In this document: positions 26,550 through 45,285 of the stretch, one piece after another
How the letters are laid out: every line of letters starts with the position of its first letter
How positions within the stretch are numbered: the first letter of the stretch is position 1
Origin: Candidatus Schekmanbacteria bacterium
GTDB taxonomy: Bacteria; CSSED10-310; JACPHN01
DNA length: 64,000 bases
NCBI GenBank assembly: GCA_016188575.1
Contig: JACPHN010000022.1
Coordinates: forward strand, 45,397 to 109,396
Direction of reading: 5' to 3'
The notes under the pieces: model-generated
What the model saw: the letters and a program-made list of their open reading frames with translations, nothing else
What the model was told of the DNA's origin: nothing
Database searches by the model: none
Position numbers and translations under genes: made by a program

Positions 26550-27182
26550 ATGACTCGCAAGCCCAAAAGCGACCGCGGCGCTGCGCGGCAGGACGAAATC
26601 CTCCGGGCCGCCGCCGTGGTGTTCGCCGAGCATGGCTACGAACGCGCCAACATCGACAAGGTCTGCAGCGCGGCCGGCATCGCTCGCGGCACCCTGTATC
26701 AGTACTTCGCCGACAAGCAATCGCTGTTTCGCGAGGTTCTCGAGCGGTTCGTGGCGCGCATTCGGCCGACGATGCAACCATTTGTGCCGCTCGGCATCCC
26801 CATTCCGAAGGACGAAAAACTGATTCGCGGATTCTTGACGCTCCGCCTGCAGGGAGTCTTTGAGTCCCTGGCCGAAGAACCCCACGTCTTCCGCATTCTT
26901 GTCAATGAGGGCACTGCCAAGAACGCGGAAGTCGAGGACCTGGTCGCGGCGTTCGACCTGGAGCTGCGAGCCATGATCGAGACGGAGCTGAGCTATGGCG
27001 CGCAGACGGGGTTGTTCGTGATCGACGATGTCCCGTTTCTCGCCAACTTCATCGTGGGAGCCGTCCTCAAGACCGCGCAGGCATACTTGTTTCGGCCCGA
27101 AACCAGTATGGATCCGGCGCGACTGGGCGAGAAAACCGTGCAGATCGTGATGCGGCTCATCCAGCCGGCGCCAAGGCAGTAA
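26550..27182 (+). CDS. TetR/AcrR family transcriptional regulator
   Basis: About 210 residues. The N-terminal helix-turn-helix reads ILRAAAVVFAEHGYERANIDKVCSAAGIARGTLYQYFADK, the classic TetR pattern. The C-terminal domain is ligand-binding and variable. ATG 26550 gives a normal leader after the promoter. ATG 26514, inside the operator, is in frame but would require an almost leaderless message. The adjacent operon starts 60 bp after its stop and carries the same operator, so it is the likely target. Confidence 0.9.
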   Translation: MTRKPKSDRGAARQDEILRAAAVVFAEHGYERANIDKVCSAAGIARGTLYQYFADKQSLFREVLERFVARIRPTMQPFVPLGIPIPKDEKLIRGFLTLRLQGVFESLAEEPHVFRILVNEGTAKNAEVEDLVAAFDLELRAMIETELSYGAQTGLFVIDDVPFLANFIVGAVLKTAQAYLFRPETSMDPARLGEKTVQIVMRLIQPAPRQ

Positions 27183-27235
27183 CGTACCGCTTTCTTGAGC
27201 ACCATTGGGAGTGCTCATTACCCGTGAGGAGAAAA

Positions 27236-27249
27236 ACTGACATGTCAGT
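27236..27249 (+). promoter_or_regulatory. Second TetR operator, overlapping a start codon
   Basis: ACTGACATGTCAGT is identical to the core of the operator at 26507-26522. The ATG of the first oxidoreductase gene (27242-27244) lies within the palindrome. An inverted repeat GAGCAC-8 nt-GTGCTC (27197-27216) lies just upstream. No strong separate promoter was seen. Confidence 0.7.
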
Positions 27250-28723
27250 GCAAGTCGAAACCAGGCACCCTGTCGATGAGGCCATCGACGCCATCCCGGG
27301 CATCACCGTGTCCCGGGCGCTCCCGCGACTCCAGGACTTCACCGGCGATCGCAGCCAGCCAAGCGCATGCTCGCCCGTCGCCATCTTCACCCCCAAAGGC
27401 CGAAACGAGCTTCAGGCGCTCGTCGAGGTCGCCCGCACCGTCGGCCTCCGCCTGCTTCCCGTGAGCTCGGGTGTCCCCCACTATCGCGGCGACACGCTTG
27501 CCGCGGAAAACACCGCGATCGTCGACATGAGCGCCTTCAGCAGCGTTGTGCGCGTCGACCGCCGCAACCGCGTCGCGCTGCTCGAGGCCGGCGTCCGCTT
27601 CCCCGAGCTCACCAAGGTGCTCGCCAACCACGGGCTGCGACCCCTCTTGCCGCTCGTCCCCCGCAACGCCAAGTCCGCTCTCGCCGCCTACTTGGAGCGC
27701 GAACCGACGATCTATCCGCGCCACCAGTGGGACCTCGCCGATCCGCTGCTGTGCACCGAGGTTATCTTCGGGACCGGCGAGCATTTCCGCACCGGTAGCG
27801 CCGCCGGCCCCGGATCGCTCGAGGACCAGTGGGCCGCGGGCGATGCGCAGACCAATCCGATGGGGCCTGGCCAATCTGACCTCATGCGCGTGGTTCAGGG
27901 GTCGCAGGGCACCGTGGGCATTGCCACGTGGTGCTCCATCAAATGCCGCCCGGTGCCCACAAGCGAGGAGCTGTTCGTCTTTGGCAGCGCGGATCTCGGT
28001 CCCCTCGTCGAGGCCGCCTACCACCTGCTGCATCGCAAGCACCCCGAAATCCTCTTTCTTGGCGACCGCGCGCTGCTGTCGGCGTTGACGACGGGGCGAA
28101 TGGCCGATGTCGCGAGCGTTTCGGGGCGGTACCCACAGTGGTTTCTGGCCGCGAGCATCGCCGAGCCTCCCTTCGCGGGAGCGCCGAAGATGCGCCTGAT
28201 GAAGGGTGAGATCGGCGAAATGGCGCGCCTGCTCAATCTGCAGCGCGTCGAGCGCACCCCCGGCGGGACCGTCGAGGACTTGCTGCGCGTGCTGTTGGAG
28301 CCGTCGCGCGCCGGCAGCGCCTCGTGGCGCGAGGCCGGAAAGGGCAACACCGCCGAGGTGTTTTTCCTGACCACGCTGGATCGGGCTTCCCGATTCGTGG
28401 ACATCGTCACGGCCTTCCAGGCGCGGTATCTGCGGCGCGATCAGGAACCGATCTTCTACATCCAACCCCTGCTGGGCGGCAGAAGTTGCCATTTCGAGGC
28501 GTCGTTCCCGCACGCGCCGGAAGCCTCGACGGAGCTCTGGCGACAGCTCCCGGAGCTGGTCCGGCGGCTCCGCGCCGCGGGCGCTTTCTTCTCGCGCCCC
28601 TACGGCGCGCTCACTGCGGCCGCCACGGAAGGGTCTCCGGCGGCGCGGCTCGTTTCCCGCATTCAGGGCATGTTCGACCCGGACAGCATTCTTTCGCCGG
28701 GAAACTTGCGCATCACCGGCTGA
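27242..28723 (+). CDS. FAD-binding oxidoreductase (GlcD/PCMH-type), first subunit
   Basis: A 493-residue flavoprotein of the FAD_binding_4 (PCMH) type. The N-terminal part VAIFTPKGRNELQALVEVARTVGLRLLPVSSG fits the FAD-binding fold. QGSQGTVGIATWCSIKC corresponds to the family's GxxGxxG-like turn, and a C-terminal cap ends in MFDPDSILSPGNL. It lacks obvious substrate-specific motifs. The ribosome-binding site GAGGAG is 10 bases before ATG 27242. It begins a three-gene operon with an Fe-S protein and a second FAD protein, like the GlcDEF glycolate oxidase layout. Confidence 0.85.
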   Translation: MSVQVETRHPVDEAIDAIPGITVSRALPRLQDFTGDRSQPSACSPVAIFTPKGRNELQALVEVARTVGLRLLPVSSGVPHYRGDTLAAENTAIVDMSAFSSVVRVDRRNRVALLEAGVRFPELTKVLANHGLRPLLPLVPRNAKSALAAYLEREPTIYPRHQWDLADPLLCTEVIFGTGEHFRTGSAAGPGSLEDQWAAGDAQTNPMGPGQSDLMRVVQGSQGTVGIATWCSIKCRPVPTSEELFVFGSADLGPLVEAAYHLLHRKHPEILFLGDRALLSALTTGRMADVASVSGRYPQWFLAASIAEPPFAGAPKMRLMKGEIGEMARLLNLQRVERTPGGTVEDLLRVLLEPSRAGSASWREAGKGNTAEVFFLTTLDRASRFVDIVTAFQARYLRRDQEPIFYIQPLLGGRSCHFEASFPHAPEASTELWRQLPELVRRLRAAGAFFSRPYGALTAAATEGSPAARLVSRIQGMFDPDSILSPGNLRITG

Positions 28724-28744
28724 CGATAGAGGGAGGAACAATCC

Positions 28745-30037
28745 ATGACGCTCACCAACAATTATCAGTCCATGGCGGAGCTCAAGAGCCTCGCCGGCAA
28801 GTGCCCGCGCTGTTCGCTGTGCAAGTTTCCCCCGCTGGTAGCGGTGCGCGACGCCGGGTTCAGCAGTATTTGCCCCGCCTACGAGGTCAACAAGATGCAT
28901 GCGTCGTCCGGCGGCGGCATGCTGGTGATGGGGATGAGCCTGCTTGAGGGGCGGAGCGAGGTCACTGACCGCGTGCGGCGGATCGCTCAGGAATGCACCG
29001 CCTGCGGCGGTTGCGACATCGCCTGCAAGTTCAGCTCGGACATCGAGGTCCTCGAAGTCATCTTTCAACTGCGCGCGCACATCTACAAGACCGCGGGGGC
29101 GGCGCCGGCGCACGAGGCCGTGCTGCAATCGATGCGAGCCCGGCTCCACCCGCTCGTGACGGCCTCGGGCGCTCTCGGCGACTGGCTCAAGGACGTCCCG
29201 GCGGAGCAAAGCTCGACCCCGGACTACCTGCTGTGGGTGGGACCGCACTACGCCTTGCTGCCGGAGCTGCGCACGACGCTCACACACGCGCTGAAGCTGC
29301 TCGCGGCGGGCGGCGTGCGCTACGCCGTGCTGGGCGCCTCCGAACCGTACACCGGCCGAGCCGCGCTGGAAATCGGCGACCGCGAGCTCTTCGCGAGCTT
29401 TGCCCGGCGGGCCGCCGCGGCGGTCGCGGCGAGCTCGGCGAAAGGCGTCGTTTGCCTCTCCGCCGAGGACTACGCGACGTTCCGGGCGCTTCTCCCGCGC
29501 TTCTCTGCGGTTGGCAAGCCGGTGCTGCACGTCGTGGAGTTGTACGACCAGCTCATACGCGATGGCAAGCTGAAGCCGGCGAAGCCCGTGGCGCGAGCGT
29601 TGGCGTGGCACGACCCGTCGTACCTCGGCAGGCTCTCGGAACCCTGGACGAGCTGGTCGGGCGAGCGCGTCAAGACGCTTGGCCAGATGATTCTCGAAAC
29701 GCCGCCGCGACCGGTCAATCGCGGAGACCACGGCTGCTACGACGCGCCGAGGCGAGTCCTCAGCCGCGTTCCCGGGCTGCGCACGCTCGAGTTCTTCCGC
29801 CGCCGCGAATACGCCTTCGACAGCGGCGAGTGCGGCCAGGCACTGGCGGTAGCCCCTGGTTTCGCCCTGTCGACGGCCCAGCACCGGCTGGCCGAAGCCC
29901 GCGCCGTGGGGGCGGACGCCATCGTCACCGAATGCCCGCAGAGCGCGTCGATGCTCCGCGCCGCCGCCTCCAGCAGTGACGGCACGACCACCGTGCAGAT
30001 GCTTACCGACGTTCTCTTCGAGAGCGTTCTTGCCTGA
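28745..30037 (+). CDS. Fe-S protein of GlcF/HdrD type
   Basis: A 430-residue electron-transfer subunit. Two N-terminal 4Fe-4S motifs are visible: Cys20-x2-Cys23-x2-Cys26 with Cys43, and CTACGGCDIAC (Cys84, 87, 90, 94). The C-terminal half resembles the CCG domain of GlcF/heterodisulfide reductase (LAWHDPSYLGR, GECGQAL, ECPQSASM), though the CCG Cys pairs are reduced. It probably passes electrons from the flanking FAD subunits to a quinone or other acceptor. It is 21 bp after the first FAD gene and 11 bp before the second. Confidence 0.85.
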   Translation: MTLTNNYQSMAELKSLAGKCPRCSLCKFPPLVAVRDAGFSSICPAYEVNKMHASSGGGMLVMGMSLLEGRSEVTDRVRRIAQECTACGGCDIACKFSSDIEVLEVIFQLRAHIYKTAGAAPAHEAVLQSMRARLHPLVTASGALGDWLKDVPAEQSSTPDYLLWVGPHYALLPELRTTLTHALKLLAAGGVRYAVLGASEPYTGRAALEIGDRELFASFARRAAAAVAASSAKGVVCLSAEDYATFRALLPRFSAVGKPVLHVVELYDQLIRDGKLKPAKPVARALAWHDPSYLGRLSEPWTSWSGERVKTLGQMILETPPRPVNRGDHGCYDAPRRVLSRVPGLRTLEFFRRREYAFDSGECGQALAVAPGFALSTAQHRLAEARAVGADAIVTECPQSASMLRAAASSSDGTTTVQMLTDVLFESVLA

Positions 30038-30048
30038 GGAGATTAGAC

Positions 30049-31923
30049 ATGACCGTAGCAGCAAAAACCAGTGCAGGGTGGGCCGACAAGCGGACGCCCG
30101 AAGAGATAGCGGAGCTTCGCGAAACCGTCCGCCGGCGCCTCGTGCTCGAGCTTGGCGAGCGCTGGGTGGAGACGGACCCCTGCGTGCTCGACACCTACAG
30201 TTGGCAATACATCGCGGAAGCGGCCACGGGATCTCAGTACATGCCGCGCGCGCTGGCCATCGCGCTGCCGGCAGACGCCGAGCAGGTCGCCGCCGTGGTG
30301 CGCCTGTGCAACGAGCTCGGCGTGCAGTACAAGGCGATGAGCACGGGCTTCGGCATGTGGAACTCGCCGATCGAACCCGACAAGGTGGTGCAGATCGACC
30401 TGCGGCGGCTCGACCGCATCATCAAAATCGACGCCAAGAACATGTATGCCATCGTGGAGCCGTACGTCACCGGAAACCAGCTCCAGACCGAGGCGATGAA
30501 GCTCGGGTTGAACACTCACATCGCGGGCTGCGGCGCGCAATGCTCGGTGCTGGCGTCCGCCACGTCGATGATGGGGCAGGGCCTGGACGGCGTGAGCATG
30601 GGATTTTCCAACCGCAACCTGCTCGGCTTCGAGTGGGTGATGCCGGGAGGGGAGATCGTGCGCGTGGGTTCGTTCGGGGACGCCGGGGATTACTTCGCCG
30701 GTGACGGCCCGGGCCCTTCGGTGCGCGGCGTCATCCGGGGGTTTGCGGGCGCGCTCGGCGGCCTCGGCGTGTTCACGCGTTGCGCCGTCAAGCTCTACCC
30801 CTGGAGCGGGCCGAAGCAGCTCGACCTGGAAGGAGGCTCACCGAATTTCTTCGCCCGCATCCCGCGCCATCACACGGCGGCGGTGGTCGTGGTGAAGGAT
30901 TGGAAGAGCCTTGCGGAGCTCGGCTATCGCATCGGCGAGGCGGAGATCGCGGACTACCTCGGGCGCAACGCGCCGTCGCTGATGGCCGGGGTGCTGACCG
31001 TGGACAACGCCGAAGCCGCGGAAGTCTACAAGATCCCCATGCTCCATGAGCTTTACTACGCGCTCGTCGTGGTGATGACCGCGGCGAGCACCGAAGAGAT
31101 GAATTACAAGCGGTCCGCGCTGCGGGAGATCGTGCGCGGGCTCGGCGGCGGCGCGCTTTCCAACGATTTCTCGCCCGCCGGGATCCAGGACTTTCTGCGC
31201 TTTCTGAAGGTCGTTTCGGCCCGGCTCGGGACGCGGGCGTTTCTGAGATCGATGCCGAGCTTCCTCGGGCTGGTCTTGCGGGACGCGCGCCGGTACGGGA
31301 TGGCGAAGGCGCCGATGGCGCTCACGAGCCTGCTGTATCAGAGCTTGTTGCGCTCGGGGATGAACATGCGGGGCGTGTTCCGGTTCGCGGGCACGTTCTG
31401 GACGGCCATGGGCTCGCTGGTGACCTGGGACAACGCCATCCGCGGCGCGCGGGTCGGCGCGCAGATCAAGCGGAAGTACATCGACCAGGGGGTCATCGTG
31501 GACGACGGCGGGGACAACGCCTGGGGCGGTCTGTATGAGGGAGGCACGTTCAGCCACCTCGAGGAGCTGGCGATGTACGACCAGACCGACCCCGAGGCCG
31601 GCGACCGGGTGGCGGAATACGTCGCCGAGACCAACCTGGCGTGCGTCGACTACCACTGCGGTGACAGCCTCAACGCCGTAGGGCCGCCATTCCACCGCAT
31701 GTTCTCGCCGGCGTGCATGGACTACGACAAGTATACCTATCGCATCAAGACGACGTTTGATCCGCAGAATGCAGCCGACGCGACCATGTTCACGGATCCG
31801 GCGTTCGCGCCGGACGCGCGCCTGGAAGCGCGCATGCAGGCGGTGCTTGCCGATCGGGCCAAGGTGAGCATCGACACGAGCCACGCCGGCGCCCCGGTGC
31901 GGGTGCTGGCGCCGCTCCACTAG
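30049..31923 (+). CDS. FAD-binding oxidoreductase, second subunit
   Basis: A 624-residue FAD_binding_4 flavoprotein. ALAIALPADAEQVAAVVRLCNELGVQYKAMSTGFG forms the PCMH N-terminal lobe. SMGFSNRNLLGFEWVMPGGEIVRVGSF and GPGPSVRGVIRGFAGALGGLGVFTRCAVKLYP form the FAD-binding second lobe, the latter resembling D-lactate dehydrogenase/alkyl-DHAP synthase-type enzymes. It is larger than GlcD. It ends the operon. The unusual pairing of two different FAD subunits around one Fe-S subunit suggests one is catalytic and one an accessory or second-substrate site. Substrate unknown. Confidence 0.85.
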   Translation: MTVAAKTSAGWADKRTPEEIAELRETVRRRLVLELGERWVETDPCVLDTYSWQYIAEAATGSQYMPRALAIALPADAEQVAAVVRLCNELGVQYKAMSTGFGMWNSPIEPDKVVQIDLRRLDRIIKIDAKNMYAIVEPYVTGNQLQTEAMKLGLNTHIAGCGAQCSVLASATSMMGQGLDGVSMGFSNRNLLGFEWVMPGGEIVRVGSFGDAGDYFAGDGPGPSVRGVIRGFAGALGGLGVFTRCAVKLYPWSGPKQLDLEGGSPNFFARIPRHHTAAVVVVKDWKSLAELGYRIGEAEIADYLGRNAPSLMAGVLTVDNAEAAEVYKIPMLHELYYALVVVMTAASTEEMNYKRSALREIVRGLGGGALSNDFSPAGIQDFLRFLKVVSARLGTRAFLRSMPSFLGLVLRDARRYGMAKAPMALTSLLYQSLLRSGMNMRGVFRFAGTFWTAMGSLVTWDNAIRGARVGAQIKRKYIDQGVIVDDGGDNAWGGLYEGGTFSHLEELAMYDQTDPEAGDRVAEYVAETNLACVDYHCGDSLNAVGPPFHRMFSPACMDYDKYTYRIKTTFDPQNAADATMFTDPAFAPDARLEARMQAVLADRAKVSIDTSHAGAPVRVLAPLH

Positions 31924-36259: not shown

Positions 36260-36675
36260 GCGCGCCGCGCTCTCCGCGATTCCGTGGGCACCTATCGCCG
36301 CATTATCAACAGATGATTGTGGATAGTCAACCGCCGTGCGCGGCGCCCGCGGGCCCTCCGGCGTGCGCTGTTCTCCGGCCTCCCGGCGCCCGCGCCGGCG
36401 GCGCCGTACACGCATTTCTTTACGCCTGCCGGCTTGTGGATGAGCGGCGCGCGGGCCGAAAACGCGGTCGCGGTCCCGGCGGCACAACCGCTCGCCGGAG
36501 AGTTATCAACAGGTTGTCCACAATTCCTGGCGTCGGCCGAATGTGCCTTCCACCATGGCGAGCGCAATGCGCTTGCCATCTGCCCCTCCCCATTCGCGCG
36601 CGGACAAGACGGATGCGGCTTCCTGTCTCCCTCCCCCCGCTTCCGCACCAGCCCCCGGTCGCCAGTTTCGAAGGC
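36260..36675. other. Intergenic interval with DnaA-box-like cluster
   Basis: No gene supported between the divergently arranged mtnA and TetR genes. It contains five DnaA-box-like 9-mers and a copy of the GTGTAAAG-type motif (36529-36554). Confidence 0.6.
36303..36522. promoter_or_regulatory. Cluster of five DnaA-box-like 9-mers
   Basis: Each differs by one base from TTATCCACA or its complement: TTATCAACA (36303-36311), TGTGGATAG (36318-36326), TGTGGATGA (36435-36443), TTATCAACA (36503-36511) and TTGTCCACA (36514-36522). Such a density is unexpected in GC-rich sequence. Whether it is an origin, a DnaA-titrating site or a regulatory cluster cannot be told; dnaA and dnaN are not in the window. 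Confidence 0.55.
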
Positions 36676-36708
36676 TTGACATCATTATTAATCGTACGTA
36701 TGATTAAT
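36676..36708 (+). promoter_or_regulatory. Sigma-70-type promoter with palindromic operator
   Basis: TTGACA (36676-36681), a 17-bp spacer and TATGAT (36699-36704). A perfect inverted repeat ATTAATC-8 nt-GATTAAT (36687-36708) covers the spacer and -10, which is where a repressor would block RNA polymerase. It lies 30 bp before the TetR gene that starts the glycyl-radical-enzyme operon. Confidence 0.8.
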
Positions 36709-36737
36709 TTAATCGAAAGCACCGCGAGCGAAAACCC

Positions 36738-37460
36738 ATGGCCCGACCCGTTCACGCCAACGCTGCCGTCACGCGCGACCGCCTGCTGCGGAGCGCTTCC
36801 CAGCTCTTCGCTGAAAGGGGACTGGATGGCGCTTCCTTGCGCGAAATCGCGCGCGGCGCCGAGGTCAATCTCGCCATGGTCCACCACTACTTCGGCAACA
36901 AGGAGCAGCTCTACGCCGCCTGCCAGGCGGCCGCGTACGAGGACCTTGCGGACGACATCGCAGGGTTTCAGGGTCTGTTCGGCGAGCTCGCGGGCGCGGT
37001 GGAGCGGGCTGGCACCAGAGCGGAGATCGACGTGCTGATCGCGCCGGTCGTGGGTCGCGGTTTCCGCTTCGTGCGCGAGCACCGCGCCGCGGTCCAGATG
37101 CTCATGCGTGGCGTCATCGAGCGCGGGGAGCTCGACCCGCGATGGCGGAACCAGGCACTACTGCCGTTCGTCGGCAGAACCGCGCGCCGGGTCGCCGCTG
37201 CGTGCGGCCAATCCGAAGCGCGCGTGCGGCTCGGCATCCACAGCTTGGTCGCGCTCATCATGCGCTATTCCCTGAGCACGACGCGCGAGCTCGCGGCGAT
37301 GCTCGGCCGGCTTGACGACCCGGCGAGCACAGGTCAAGAAGAACGTGGTAACAATACGGAAGAGGCGATCCTGGAGGCGTTCGAGGAGCATCTCGTCGAC
37401 GTCGCGCGGGCGCTGATCGGCGCCGGTCCGGGCGCCGGGGAGGTTGGTTGTGAACAATAG
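36738..37460 (+). CDS. TetR/AcrR family regulator of the GRE operon
   Basis: A 240-residue repressor-type protein. N-terminal helix-turn-helix: LLRSASQLFAERGLDGASLREIARGAEVNLAMVHHYFGNKEQL. The C-terminal ligand domain is of the CecR/DUF1956-like type by general layout (FRFVREHRAAVQMLMRGVIERGE). Its gene overlaps the downstream GRE gene by 11 bp and is preceded by a promoter with a palindrome, so it probably represses its own operon. The inducer is unknown but may be the GRE substrate. Confidence 0.9.
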   Translation: MARPVHANAAVTRDRLLRSASQLFAERGLDGASLREIARGAEVNLAMVHHYFGNKEQLYAACQAAAYEDLADDIAGFQGLFGELAGAVERAGTRAEIDVLIAPVVGRGFRFVREHRAAVQMLMRGVIERGELDPRWRNQALLPFVGRTARRVAAACGQSEARVRLGIHSLVALIMRYSLSTTRELAAMLGRLDDPASTGQEERGNNTEEAILEAFEEHLVDVARALIGAGPGAGEVGCEQ

Positions 37461-40125
37461 CGCTCTGCTCGACGTGGCCGAACGACAGGAAGAACTGACC
37501 GCCGGCGCCTCACGAGCTTACCCTCCCGCTTTCCCTCCCGCGTGCGGCGGGGATGAGGCGGGAGCGGAAGTAGCCAGGGACCTTCCGGGTTCGGCGCGCC
37601 TGGCGCGCCTGCGCCAGGCGCTGCTCGCGGCGCCGTATGCCGTCTGTGCGCAGAAAGCCATCCTCATGACCCGGTATCTCGCCGGCGCGCCGGCGGGGTC
37701 GCTCTTCGCGCGCGGCCTCAGCGCCGCGCACTTCGGCCTGTATCGAAAATCTCTCGAAGCGACCGCCGCTGGCGCCTGCCAACCGGCCTGGAAGTCGCGC
37801 CTGAATACCTCCCTGCTGGCGTACTACCGGCGCCGCGAGGGGCTGACGCCCGCGCGCCGCCTCGTGCTTTTCGCCGAGGCGCTGGCCTACATCCTGGACA
37901 ACATGGCGCTGCGCGTCTACGACGACGAGCTCATCGTGGGCAATTTGTCCAGCCACCGCATCGGCGCGCCGCTGCACCCCGACTACGGTGCGCTGCTGCT
38001 GTTGCCGGAGCTCGACGGCATCGCCACGCGCGCTGAAAACCCCCTGCGGCTTTCGGGTGCGGATCGCACGGCGCTGCATGACGAGGTGTTTCCGTTCTGG
38101 TTTGACAGGTCCGTCCTGGCGATGATGCCCTCGTTCAGCGATGACCCGGAGCTCATGAACACCTTGATGGAAGGCGTGAGCTTCGTGCTAACGCAGTTTT
38201 CGGGCATTTCGCATCTGACGCCCGACTACCCGACGGTGCTCCGCAAAGGGTTCGCAGGGATCGCCGAGGACATCGAAATGGCGCGGGCAGAGGCAGCGCG
38301 GGAGCGGGCCGGAGCGAGCTCGAAGCGGGACCGCACGGCGCTCGACGGGCGCCTGGCATTCTACGAGGCAGCGGCCATCGTCACGTCGGCGGCGCGCCGC
38401 TACGGCAGGCGGTGGGCCGCGCACCTGCGCGCGGCGGCCGGGGAGGCGGAGAGCGGCCGACGCCTGGAGCTCGAGGCGCTGGCCGAGATTTGCGAGCGCG
38501 TTCCCGAACGGCCCGCCCGCACGTTCCACGAGGCGCTGCAGAGCCTTTTCCTGACGCACGTGATCGTGCACCAGGAGAGCTTTCAGCATGGCGTATCGTT
38601 TGGACGCGTTGACCAGTACTTGCGGCCCTTCTACGAAAGCGACGTCGCCGCGGGGCGGCTCAGCAAGGAACGCGCGGTCGAGCTCATCGGCTGTTTCCTC
38701 GGGAAGGCGGCCGAGCTCTTGCCCCTATTTTTTGCCCGCGCCACGGAGTACTTCAGCGGCCTGTCCTCTGCGTCGGGGTTGACGCTCGGCGGCACCTTGC
38801 CCGATGGGAGTGACGCTGTCAACGAGCTCTCTTTTCTGTTCCTGAACGCCTACGACCTTATGCGGCTGCGCCAGCCCAACATCCACGTGCGCGTCCACCC
38901 GCGCAGCGACCAGCAGTTTCTGACGCTGTGCTATGAGACGCTGAAAAAGGGGAGTGGGATCCCCGCGCTGTTCAATGATGAGCAGATCGTTCCGGCCCTC
39001 GAGCGCGCCGGCTACGCGCGTGCCGACGCGGAGGAATACGCGGTGGTCGGTTGCGCGGAGTGGGGAGTACCCCACTGTACGTTTCAGGCGGCGGGCGCCG
39101 GCTTCATCAATGCGGCATATCCGCTGGTCCTGGCGCTTCACGAGGGAAGCTGGCTCGGCACGAAGGTCGGTCCCAAGACTGCGCCGGTCACGGCCATGCG
39201 CTCAATGGCGGACCTGCTCGCCGCCTATCGCGCGCAGCTCGCCGGCCAGGTAGCGCGCGCCATCGCCGGCAATAACGCCATCGAGCGCGCCCACGCGGCC
39301 TACCGCCCCACGCCCTTCCTGTCGGCGATCGTCGGCGGTTGCATCGCCAAGGGAAGGGACGTGACCTGGGGCGGCGCGATCTATAACCCCAGCGGGATGC
39401 AGGGTGTCGGCGTCGCCGACGCCGCGGATTCTCTGGCGGCCATCGAGGAGCTCGTGTTCCGCCGCCGCGAGATTTCGTTGAGCATGCTTGTCGCGGCAGT
39501 CGATGCGAACTTCGAGCAGGACTCGCCGCTCCGGTGCACGCTGCTCAACCGGGTGCCCAAGTATGGCGAAAATCGCGGTCGCGTCGATACCCACGTCGCC
39601 TGGCTGACCGCGGCGTTCGCGGCGGAGGTCCAGCGCCATCGCAACCCCCGCGGAGGGTCCTACATCGCGGGGTTTTGGACCATGACGACGCACCAGGGGT
39701 TCGGCCGCCGCATGGGCGCTCTCCCCAGCGGCCGGCGCGCCGGCGAGGCGCTGGCAAACGGCGTCTCTCCGAGCAATGGGCGCGATCGGCGCGGCCCGAC
39801 GGCGTCGCTTTCCGCGGCGGCGAGCGTCGTCGCGGCGGGCGTCGGAAACGGCTACGTCCTCAACCAGAAACTCGACCCCGCCTATGTCCGCGGCAGCCAC
39901 GGAACGCTCATCATGGACGGGCTCGTGCGCGGCTATTTCCGCAAGGGCGGCATGCAGGTCCAGTTCAACATCATCGACCCGGCGGTGTTGCTCGATGCGC
40001 GAGCCCACCCAGAACGGCACCGCGACCTTGTTGTGCGCATCTCTGGCTATTCGGCCTATTTCAACGATCTCACCGAGGCCATGAAAGACGAAATCATCGC
40101 CCGCACCGTTCACGGGAGCTGCTGA
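37450..40125 (+). CDS. Glycyl radical enzyme of the pyruvate formate-lyase superfamily
   Basis: An 891-residue anaerobic radical enzyme. The thiyl-radical loop is VVGCAEWGVP, with Cys535 and, two residues on, Glu537. This is the GCxE pattern of dehydratase/lyase-type GREs (glycerol and propanediol dehydratase, CutC, HypD), not the CC pair of pyruvate formate-lyase. The radical-site loop is RISGYSAYF with Gly866. Conserved middle segments include LTLGGTLPDGSDAVNELS. Tryptophan after the Glu is unusual in the members I know. GTG 37450 has GGGGAGG 6 bases upstream. The N-terminus has an extra Pro/Gly-rich stretch (about residues 22-45) that may be a repeat insertion. Substrate unknown; oxygen-sensitive when activated. 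Confidence 0.88.
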   Translation: MNNSALLDVAERQEELTAGASRAYPPAFPPACGGDEAGAEVARDLPGSARLARLRQALLAAPYAVCAQKAILMTRYLAGAPAGSLFARGLSAAHFGLYRKSLEATAAGACQPAWKSRLNTSLLAYYRRREGLTPARRLVLFAEALAYILDNMALRVYDDELIVGNLSSHRIGAPLHPDYGALLLLPELDGIATRAENPLRLSGADRTALHDEVFPFWFDRSVLAMMPSFSDDPELMNTLMEGVSFVLTQFSGISHLTPDYPTVLRKGFAGIAEDIEMARAEAARERAGASSKRDRTALDGRLAFYEAAAIVTSAARRYGRRWAAHLRAAAGEAESGRRLELEALAEICERVPERPARTFHEALQSLFLTHVIVHQESFQHGVSFGRVDQYLRPFYESDVAAGRLSKERAVELIGCFLGKAAELLPLFFARATEYFSGLSSASGLTLGGTLPDGSDAVNELSFLFLNAYDLMRLRQPNIHVRVHPRSDQQFLTLCYETLKKGSGIPALFNDEQIVPALERAGYARADAEEYAVVGCAEWGVPHCTFQAAGAGFINAAYPLVLALHEGSWLGTKVGPKTAPVTAMRSMADLLAAYRAQLAGQVARAIAGNNAIERAHAAYRPTPFLSAIVGGCIAKGRDVTWGGAIYNPSGMQGVGVADAADSLAAIEELVFRRREISLSMLVAAVDANFEQDSPLRCTLLNRVPKYGENRGRVDTHVAWLTAAFAAEVQRHRNPRGGSYIAGFWTMTTHQGFGRRMGALPSGRRAGEALANGVSPSNGRDRRGPTASLSAAASVVAAGVGNGYVLNQKLDPAYVRGSHGTLIMDGLVRGYFRKGGMQVQFNIIDPAVLLDARAHPERHRDLVVRISGYSAYFNDLTEAMKDEIIARTVHGSC

Positions 40126-40127
40126 CC

Positions 40128-41051
40128 GTGTCCACCACCGCGTGCTCCAGCTCGACGGTCACGGCGACGGTGTTCGACGTGCAGCGCTTTTCAATTCACG
40201 ATGGCCCGGGCATTCGCACGGCCGTCTTCTTCAAGGGATGCTCCTTTCACTGCGCCTGGTGCCAGAACCCCGAGTCCATTCGGCCTCGGCCGGAAATGGC
40301 CTTCTATGCGGACCGCTGCATCGGCTGCCGGCGCTGCGAGTCGGTCTGCCCCGAAAGGGCGCTGCGCTTCGACCGTGCCGGCAGAATCGACCGCTCGCGG
40401 TGCACCGCCTGTGGTCTGTGCGCGCGTTCCTGCCCGTCCGAGGCGCTGCGACTCGTCGGCCGCGCCTGCGACGCCGAGTCACTGGCGGCGGAATGCCTCG
40501 AGGATCGCGAGTTTTTTGAAAGCTCCGGCGGTGGCGTGACCTTGTCGGGGGGTGAGCCGATCTTGCAAGGTCAGTTCCTGCAGCAGCTTCTGCCGCGCTT
40601 GCGCGCCGAACGCATCCACGTCCTGCTCGAAACCGCCGGAAACTACCCCTGGCGCCTGCTGGAGCCCGTAGCTCCCTTGCTCGACCACATCTACTTCGAC
40701 TGGAAGGCGCCCGATGACGCGGCGTATCGCCGCGTCGCCGGTGCTGGTTGCGCGCAGGTCGCGGAGAACCTCGGGCGGCTGCGTGCGCTGGGAGCTTCGG
40801 TGACCGTGCGAACGCCCGTCGTACCAGGGGTCAATACCGAGGACGAACAAGTGGAGGTCATGAGTCGCACCTTGGCCGACCTCGGCGAGCGGCATCTTTG
40901 CCTGCTGCGCTACAACCACTTCTGGGAGGCCAAGCTCGCCCGGCTCGAGACGCGCCAGACGGCGCTTGGCCGGCGCGGCGAAGAGATCGACTACGAACGG
41001 CTGCAGGCGGCGTTCGCCCGGCACGGCATCGCGGCCACGATGGCCACCTGA
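40128..41051 (+). CDS. Glycyl radical enzyme activase (radical SAM)
   Basis: A 307-residue [4Fe-4S] radical SAM enzyme that installs the glycyl radical on the preceding GRE by H-abstraction with the 5'-deoxyadenosyl radical. The SAM cluster motif is GCSFHCAWC (Cys38, 42, 45). Two extra ferredoxin-type clusters follow, CIGCRRCESVC and CTACGLCARSC, as in activases of dehydratase-type GREs and unlike PflA, which lacks them. GGVTLSGGEPILQ is the SAM-binding GGE motif. GTG 40128 is 2 bases after the GRE stop with GGGAG upstream, so the pair is co-translated. Confidence 0.92.
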   Translation: MSTTACSSSTVTATVFDVQRFSIHDGPGIRTAVFFKGCSFHCAWCQNPESIRPRPEMAFYADRCIGCRRCESVCPERALRFDRAGRIDRSRCTACGLCARSCPSEALRLVGRACDAESLAAECLEDREFFESSGGGVTLSGGEPILQGQFLQQLLPRLRAERIHVLLETAGNYPWRLLEPVAPLLDHIYFDWKAPDDAAYRRVAGAGCAQVAENLGRLRALGASVTVRTPVVPGVNTEDEQVEVMSRTLADLGERHLCLLRYNHFWEAKLARLETRQTALGRRGEEIDYERLQAAFARHGIAATMAT

Positions 41052-41088
41052 CGGCCAGGCCGCCTGCGCTCCTTATTACGCTTCCCCG

Positions 41089-41727
41089 CTACCGCGTCAG
41101 AAACGGGTTCGTCCGTCGCTCCTGGCCGATTGTCGAATCGGGGCCGTGGCCGGAATAGAACATCACGTCGTCGCCGAGGGGGAGGAGCTTGGTCGTGATC
41201 GAGTGCAGAAGCTGCGCGTAGTCTCCGCCGGGAAGATCCGTCCGCCCGATTGAACCCGCAAACAGCACGTCGCCGACGAAGGCGATCCTGTCCTTGCGGG
41301 AAAAGAGGGCGATGTGCCCGGGCGTATGACCGGGGCAGTGGAGCACCTCGAAGGTGAGATTACCGACCTCCACCCTGTCCCCATCCGCGAGCCAGCGATT
41401 CGGCGTAAACGAGCGCACCGGCGGCAGCCCAAACATCCTGCCCTGTTGCGGCAACGCCTCGATCCACCCGCGGTCGCCGAGCTCGGGACCCTCGATGGGC
41501 ACGCCCAGGAGCTCGGCCACCTCGGCCACCGCGCCGACGTGGTCGATGTGAGCATGGGTCACGAGCACCTTGTCCACGGCACAGCCGACCTGGCGCACGG
41601 CCGCCAGAATCGTGGCGACGTCGCCTCCGGGGTCCAAAATGGCGCCGCGATTGGTCTCCGAGCACGTCACCACGCATGAATTTTGCACAAAGGGCGTCAC
41701 CGGAACGACCCTGACCTGCATTGCCAT
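41089..41727 (-). CDS. MBL-fold metallo-hydrolase (GloB/YcbL-like)
   Basis: A 212-residue zinc hydrolase with THAHIDH (metal site), HCPGHTPGHIAL and the C-terminal YSGHGPDSTI. The layout fits the glyoxalase II-like YcbL group, which hydrolyses thioesters such as S-lactoylglutathione in some members; the substrate here is unproven. AGGACAAGG precedes ATG 41727. It is convergent with the GRE activase and upstream of nothing on its own strand but probably separate from recR, 94 bp away. Confidence 0.85.
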   Translation of the reverse strand: MAMQVRVVPVTPFVQNSCVVTCSETNRGAILDPGGDVATILAAVRQVGCAVDKVLVTHAHIDHVGAVAEVAELLGVPIEGPELGDRGWIEALPQQGRMFGLPPVRSFTPNRWLADGDRVEVGNLTFEVLHCPGHTPGHIALFSRKDRIAFVGDVLFAGSIGRTDLPGGDYAQLLHSITTKLLPLGDDVMFYSGHGPDSTIGQERRTNPFLTR

Positions 41728-44911: not shown

Positions 44912-44975
44912 CAACACCGCCGCGAGACGCCCGTGCGATCAAAGCGCCTCCGGTTGAGGTAGTGCGGCCATATAG

Positions 44976-45066
44976 CGGAGAGAGAGGGATTCGAACCCTC
45001 GAGACGAGTCGTCCCCGTCTACACGATTTCCAGTCGTGCTCCTTCGACCAGCTCGGACATCTCCCC
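44976..45066 (-). tRNA. tRNA-Ser (anticodon GGA)
   Basis: A 91-nt type II tRNA on the minus strand. Acceptor GGGGAGA/TCTCTCC (one G-T pair), D-arm TCCGAGCTGG, anticodon loop CTGGAAA, a long variable arm and the T-arm GGGTTCGAATCCC. The CCA is not encoded. Confidence 0.95.
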
Positions 45067-45087
45067 TGATTCAGATTTTCAAAAGAG

Positions 45088-45176
45088 CGGAGAGGGTGGG
45101 ATTCGAACCCACGTGACGGGGACACCGCCAACTCGATTTCGAGTCGAGCCCGTTGCGGCCACTTCGGTACCTCTCC
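45088..45176 (-). tRNA. tRNA-Ser (anticodon CGA)
   Basis: An 89-nt type II tRNA on the minus strand. Acceptor GGAGAGG/CCTCTCC, anticodon loop CTCGAAA, long variable arm, T-arm GGGTTCGAATCCC. The CCA is not encoded. Confidence 0.95.
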
Positions 45177-45195
45177 TTGGTAGCCATGTAATGAG

Positions 45196-45285
45196 CGGAG
45201 AGAGAGGGATTCGAACCCTCGGTGGGGTTTAACACCCCACACTCGCTTAGCAGGCGAGCGCCTTCGACCACTCGGCCATCTCCCC
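45196..45285 (-). tRNA. tRNA-Ser (anticodon GCT)
   Basis: A 90-nt type II tRNA on the minus strand. Acceptor GGGGAGA/TCTCTCC, anticodon loop CTGCTAA, variable arm TGTGGGGTGTTAAACCCCAC, T-arm GGGTTCGAATCCC. It is 19 bp upstream of the CGA isoacceptor on the same strand, so the three may form one transcript. Confidence 0.95.

Follow-up and report, generated by a model that had tools for sequence, protein, structure and literature searches.

The window, by which we mean the whole 64,000-nucleotide stretch analysed here, contains a cassette of three plus-strand genes lying head to tail, which encode a TetR-family regulator, a glycyl radical enzyme (GRE) and a radical SAM activase (Table 1). The first two genes overlap by 11 bp and the last two are separated by 2 bp, which is the order and spacing given in the first-pass annotation. 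The near-consensus promoter that had been noticed ahead of the genes is the sole match within 36488-41200 (4.7 kb), where 0.5 would be expected. An inverted repeat covers this promoter, as had been stated, but it is near-perfect rather than perfect: its 11-nt arms are 91% complementary, with 10 of 11 pairs formed and one mismatched pair. It is a single-copy element in the 9.2-Mb genome, even when up to 3 mismatches are allowed. TetR is likely to repress its own gene by way of this presumed operator, and the predicted site supports the autoregulation proposed earlier. Palindromes were also read by eye at the TetR-gene promoters of two related loci, L011 and L016 (see below), and their sequences differ. 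At about 41% identity, the window's TetR is a full-length relative of its counterparts next to the GRE at L011 and L018; the TetR proteins of L015 and L016 do not belong to this group.

Table 1. Positions of the cassette features in the window and of the SDR orthologues elsewhere in the same genome (G000, contig C128)
Feature	Position	Strand	Remarks
Sigma-70-type promoter, TTGACA-17-TATGAT	36676..36704	+	11/12 consensus matches
TTGACA box	36676-36681		followed by the 17-bp spacer
TATGAT box	36699-36704
Near-perfect inverted repeat, ATTAATCGTAC/GTATGATTAAT	36687..36708		lies over spacer and TATGAT box; presumed operator for TetR
TetR-family regulator	36738-37460	+	PF00440, 50.1 bits
GRE, GCxEWG clade	37450..40125	+	891 aa, GTG start; PF02901 540.5 bits, PF01228 86.6 bits
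Clade-specific 51-residue insert, codons 81-131	37690..37842	+	two helices in model
Cys loop codons, Cys535-Ala-Glu537-Trp538	39052..39063	+	from alignments
Gly866, predicted radical site in RISGYSAYF	40045..40047	+	from alignments
GRE-activating radical SAM enzyme	40128..41051	+	GTG start; TIGR02494; two ferredoxin-type cluster motifs
Classical SDR orthologue	C128:50573-51367		precedes extended SDR
Extended SDR orthologue	C128:51434-52393		58% identity vs 30% for next best

The GRE belongs to the PFL-like superfamily: both Pfam domains score above their cut-offs, and the predicted fold matches solved GREs. The alignments show that the catalytic Cys535 and the radical Gly866 are kept across its clade and, with the GRE start at 37450, Cys535, Glu537 and Gly866 are the residues that had been named before. 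The CxE sequence is the mark of GRE eliminases and is found in CutC and IslA as well (PMC8473560); it is Cys-Ala-Glu in the window GRE and is present in all nine members of the clade. The activase scores 282.8 bits with TIGR02494, against a cut-off of 174.35, which places it among the activases with a ferredoxin domain. It has a CX3CX2C motif and eight further cysteines, conserved in its relatives. The cysteine motifs for two extra 4Fe-4S clusters are present as annotated, but these clusters are ordinary rather than a special feature, since most GRE activases carry auxiliary clusters (PMC11528403).

A scan of 84,980 species gave ten related loci (L011 to L020); as it ran on short exact peptides, it may understate how widely the clade is distributed. 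Eight of the ten (L011-L017 and L019) have the GCxEWG sequence, making nine members with the window, while the sequence of L018 stops short of the Cys loop and the motif of L020 is GCVEPN. The nine form a single clade with support of 100/100. The branch is separate from every reference row of the tree, namely glycerol dehydratase (GD), propane-1,2-diol dehydratase (PD, two), CutC (partial), HypD, AfPFL2, YbiW and PflD, with IslA, HpsG, BSS and HPAD outside the set. The hosts come from at least five phyla, comprising Pseudomonadota, Myxococcota (including Enhygromyxa salina), Bdellovibrionota, Candidatus Binatota and the phylum of the window. One of seven other genomes of that phylum, G007, has a relative, at 56% identity; the searches at GTDB family, order and class level covered the window's own genome only. 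In the phylum of G014, where 395 genomes were covered, a clade member occurs solely in G014, with 1483 bits versus at most 756 for other GREs. No relative was present in the viral contigs searched, no literature on GREs in Enhygromyxa was found, and among the titles and abstracts listed for GREs in Myxococcota or Binatota there was nothing about the GCxEWG clade. The members are 45-64% identical to one another; at such identities the functions of GREs may already diverge (PMC11528403). The GRE is a real, rare and uncharacterised branch of the eliminases.

An all-against-all comparison of the reading frames around the loci showed that an extended SDR (VVHLAGAVGYGQ, YGDTK motif) is conserved at six of them, lying upstream of the GRE in L016 and downstream of the activase in L011, L014, L015, L017 and L019. 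A classical SDR of one type is found at L011, L016 and L019, and a different SDR at L017. Neither partner gene is present in the window; the genome has the pair on another contig (Table 1). The classical SDR orthologue (55-58% identity) adjoins the extended SDR in four genomes, the window's included. Thus, contrary to the annotation, the cassette is not self-contained, and the view that its chemistry cannot be read from context is not supported either, since the loci of its relatives carry conserved SDR partners. The extended SDR belongs to the PF01370 Epimerase family, with OleD and HpnA as its best-scoring described relatives, but the protein of the window's genome falls well short of both types (NF042422, 154.6 versus 580; TIGR03466, 125.4 versus 367.65).

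Extended SDR orthologues were found in eight of ten genomes with the GRE and in one of 401 without it (six phylum mates, G017 and 394 others), for a Fisher p of 2e-14, a value that ignores shared ancestry and MAG incompleteness. It is possible that the GRE is as described above and that the SDRs accompany it through joint horizontal transfer of adjacent genes rather than as parts of one pathway. The patchy phylum distribution is consistent with this, as is the lack of an extended SDR orthologue, at E 1e-40, in two GRE genomes, Enhygromyxa (G010) and G015. Furthermore, in G049, the one genome that carries the extended SDR but not this GRE, the gene lies 11 kb from another GRE (GCLEPN; contig C41, L079 and L080). 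However, the co-occurrence holds where the genes are unlinked, in the window's genome and in G007, the gene order varies among the loci, and the GRE-less phylum mates lack the extended SDR as well. We consider transfer alone a rather unlikely explanation of the link, and favor a functional association of the SDRs with the GRE.

A shared operator was dropped as proof of co-regulation, as the palindrome is absent at the SDR pair and occurs nowhere else in the genome. We also looked for a third partner conserved among the loci, and claim none. The 2-oxoacid acyltransferase domain, encoded by an E2-like gene directly after the pair in the window's genome (L027:10513-11343), stands alone there and is matched only loosely in L018; an MFS gene was seen after the activase in L016 alone. 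Neither the sucrose genes that precede the SDR pair nor the glycosyltransferases close to the extended SDR of G007 are conserved, and we regard both as chance neighbors. At L018, the stretch upstream of TetR-GRE (L018:3-4498) has genes for an SDR and a CoA-transferase, as well as for a more distant extended SDR and an acyltransferase domain of the E2-like kind. The GCLEPN enzyme of G049 is adjoined by its own SDR, another extended SDR and CoA-transferase-like genes.

None of the NCBIfam GRE class models reaches its own cut-off with the window GRE. The broad model TIGR01774 comes just under (649 versus 678), and the class models for CutC (TIGR04394, 403.4 bits versus 1050), for the trans-4-hydroxyproline dehydratase HypD (NF043068, 443.7 versus 1100) and for the sulfopropanediol dehydratases HpsG/HpfG (NF048011 and NF048009, 441.2 and 408.1 versus 1000) are all far from theirs. 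HypD and CutC have the eliminase architecture and CxE in common with the window GRE, at about 33% identity; IslA, for which no model was among the hits, was compared by structure only, with Z of 37. The roles of the CutC, HypD and IslA pocket residues have been described (PMC8473560). Both HypD Asp278 and CutC Asp216 are replaced by His in the window GRE, and CutC Thr502 by Ala. Although CxE would also suit an eliminase releasing an amine, sulfite or another group instead of water, these replacements and the low model scores argue against it, and amine or sulfonate genes were not recognised at the loci examined; such a reaction is improbable.

The residue following CxE is Trp in 9/9 clade members and in 0/22 other distinct GRE reading frames that were readable. 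The annotation was right that GCAEWG is distinguishing, and it is so clade-wide, but taken alone it does not prove new chemistry. The post-CxE position varies among known classes (P, T, L, I, A), and we have dropped Trp538 as a stand-alone argument. The whole pocket fingerprint together with the insert is stronger evidence. The insert, whose helices span residues 85-106 and 113-130 in the AF2 model (mean pLDDT 81), occurs in at least 7 of 9 clade members and in at most 1 of 8 other GREs compared.

The structures closest to the model are PD, GD and AfPFL2, with Z of 42-43 and rmsd of 2.1-2.3 over 763-777 residues, and Foldseek gave a similar result. The B12-independent enzymes GD (1r8w) and PD (5i2g and 9rco) resemble the window GRE in fold, Cys-x-Glu, Gly and two pocket histidines. 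In the alignment, His255, His380 and Glu537 correspond to GD His164, His281 and Glu435. In contrast, Ala441 replaces GD Tyr339, Ala548 replaces His446, Gly549 replaces Asp447, Gly381 replaces Ser282 and Trp743 replaces Tyr640, and these changes are identical in all nine members. GRE eliminases usually have an aromatic residue at the β-3 site (PMC8473560), which makes its loss from the window GRE notable, although AfPFL2 and PflD are also without it in the alignment. The clade pocket would appear roomier than those of known diol dehydratases, because Gly or Ala replaces the Ser, Asp, His and aromatic residues found there, and a substrate exceeding propane-1,2-diol in size is probable.

The closeness of these structures and the retained Glu and histidines would be expected of a diverged glycerol or propane-1,2-diol dehydratase acting on ordinary small diols. 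However, the identity to GD and PD is 33-35%, the window GRE has the 51-residue insert and lies outside the clade formed by GD, PD and 9rco (100/99), and Asp447, His446, Ser282 and the β-3 aromatic are lost throughout. Furthermore, no microcompartment or diol-dehydrogenase genes adjoin the cassette. Action on small diols is thus likewise improbable. A GRE of the decarboxylase, X-succinate synthase or pyruvate formate-lyase type shares the fold and Gly loop, but these structures are less similar to the model (Z of 29-36), the models for PFL, HPAD and indoleacetate decarboxylase fall well short of their cut-offs, and the eliminase CxE is present, so that we give this reading hardly any credence.

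The best PDB sequence match is AfPFL2 from Archaeoglobus fulgidus (2f3o), with 492.6 bits and 37% identity. It lies on the same side of the tree as the clade, with weak support (88/92), and retains the first pocket His; however, its second His is Gln, Asp447 is retained, and it has GCVEI rather than GCxEW. To our knowledge, its physiological reaction has not been established. Sister to the clade (96/94) is the uncharacterised GRE of L020 from Candidatus Abyssobacteria, which is 47% identical with most pocket residues the same. It differs in having GCVEPN, with Pro for Trp538, Cys for Ala548 and no insert, and its genome has no extended SDR orthologue (best match 31%). No characterised class compared here has high identity and the same active site: the identities are 33-37% and the pocket differs. 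The cut-offs and the tree together support the earlier description of a dehydratase/lyase-type GRE outside every characterised class tested.

We favor, with moderate confidence, the reading that the GRE is an eliminase, most likely a dehydratase, from a clade that acts on a substrate of its own, and that it is encoded alongside its activase and a TetR that represses its own gene. From the pocket residues, the enzyme probably dehydrates a 1,2-diol larger than propanediol in the absence of oxygen. Through the palindrome, TetR would hold its own promoter closed; a small ligand, perhaps the substrate itself, would end the repression. When oxygen is absent, the activase would cleave SAM and abstract hydrogen from Gly866, as is known for the family. 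By analogy with GD and PD, the glycyl radical would generate a thiyl on Cys535, which would abstract hydrogen at the substrate's carbinol carbon; Glu537 would accept the hydroxyl proton, and the vicinal hydroxyl would leave, aided by His255 and His380, to give an aldehyde or ketone. The linkage and co-occurrence suggest that the classical and extended SDRs reduce or oxidise this carbonyl product or prepare the substrate.

A protein of the haem-copper oxidase family is encoded in 10/10 GRE genomes, with strong best scores. This family also includes NO reductases. The GRE may be used under low oxygen by bacteria that are also able to respire; with terminal oxidases encoded in the same genomes, one may ask when such an oxygen-sensitive radical enzyme comes into play. 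The related loci, with their two reductase genes, suggest an undescribed anaerobic pathway on a larger diol-like compound. The fuller proposal, that the GRE, activase and two SDRs constitute an undescribed pathway of anaerobic dehydration of bulky vicinal diols in oxygen-respiring bacteria of at least five phyla, is one that we advance tentatively, as a possibility. Several characterised GRE classes have each revealed an anaerobic pathway, for choline, hydroxyproline, isethionate and anhydroglucitol phosphate. Many GRE clusters remain without an assigned function (PMC11574389). Unlike a bare cluster of this kind, the GCxEWG clade brings a testable set of partners, and a pocket unlike the compared classes together with two candidate partner enzymes narrows the search for the substrate.

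The window's genome encodes two more GREs. One forms an activase-GRE pair at L028:841-4133 (contig C119) and has GCVEPV; with a GRE of G007 (L010, contig C168) it makes up a clade of its own (100/100), and both genomes also carry the GCxEWG enzyme. The other, at L029:7744-10224 (contig C160), has GCVQP, with Gln replacing the catalytic Glu, and lies among nucleotide-sugar and aminotransferase genes with no activase beside it in the stretch read. A near-identical N-terminal region is found in ATPase genes at 1204-2772 of the window and at L028:1-327 and L028:13594-14844, the latter two at either end of contig C119, as if a repeated gene had broken the assembly. About 5 kb from the cassette, at 26550-31923, an apparently separate oxidoreductase operon encodes, after a TetR, two FAD-binding oxidase-like proteins and an Fe-S (Fer4_8) protein. 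Three tandem tRNA-Ser genes (GGA, CGA, GCT) lie on the minus strand at 44975-45285.
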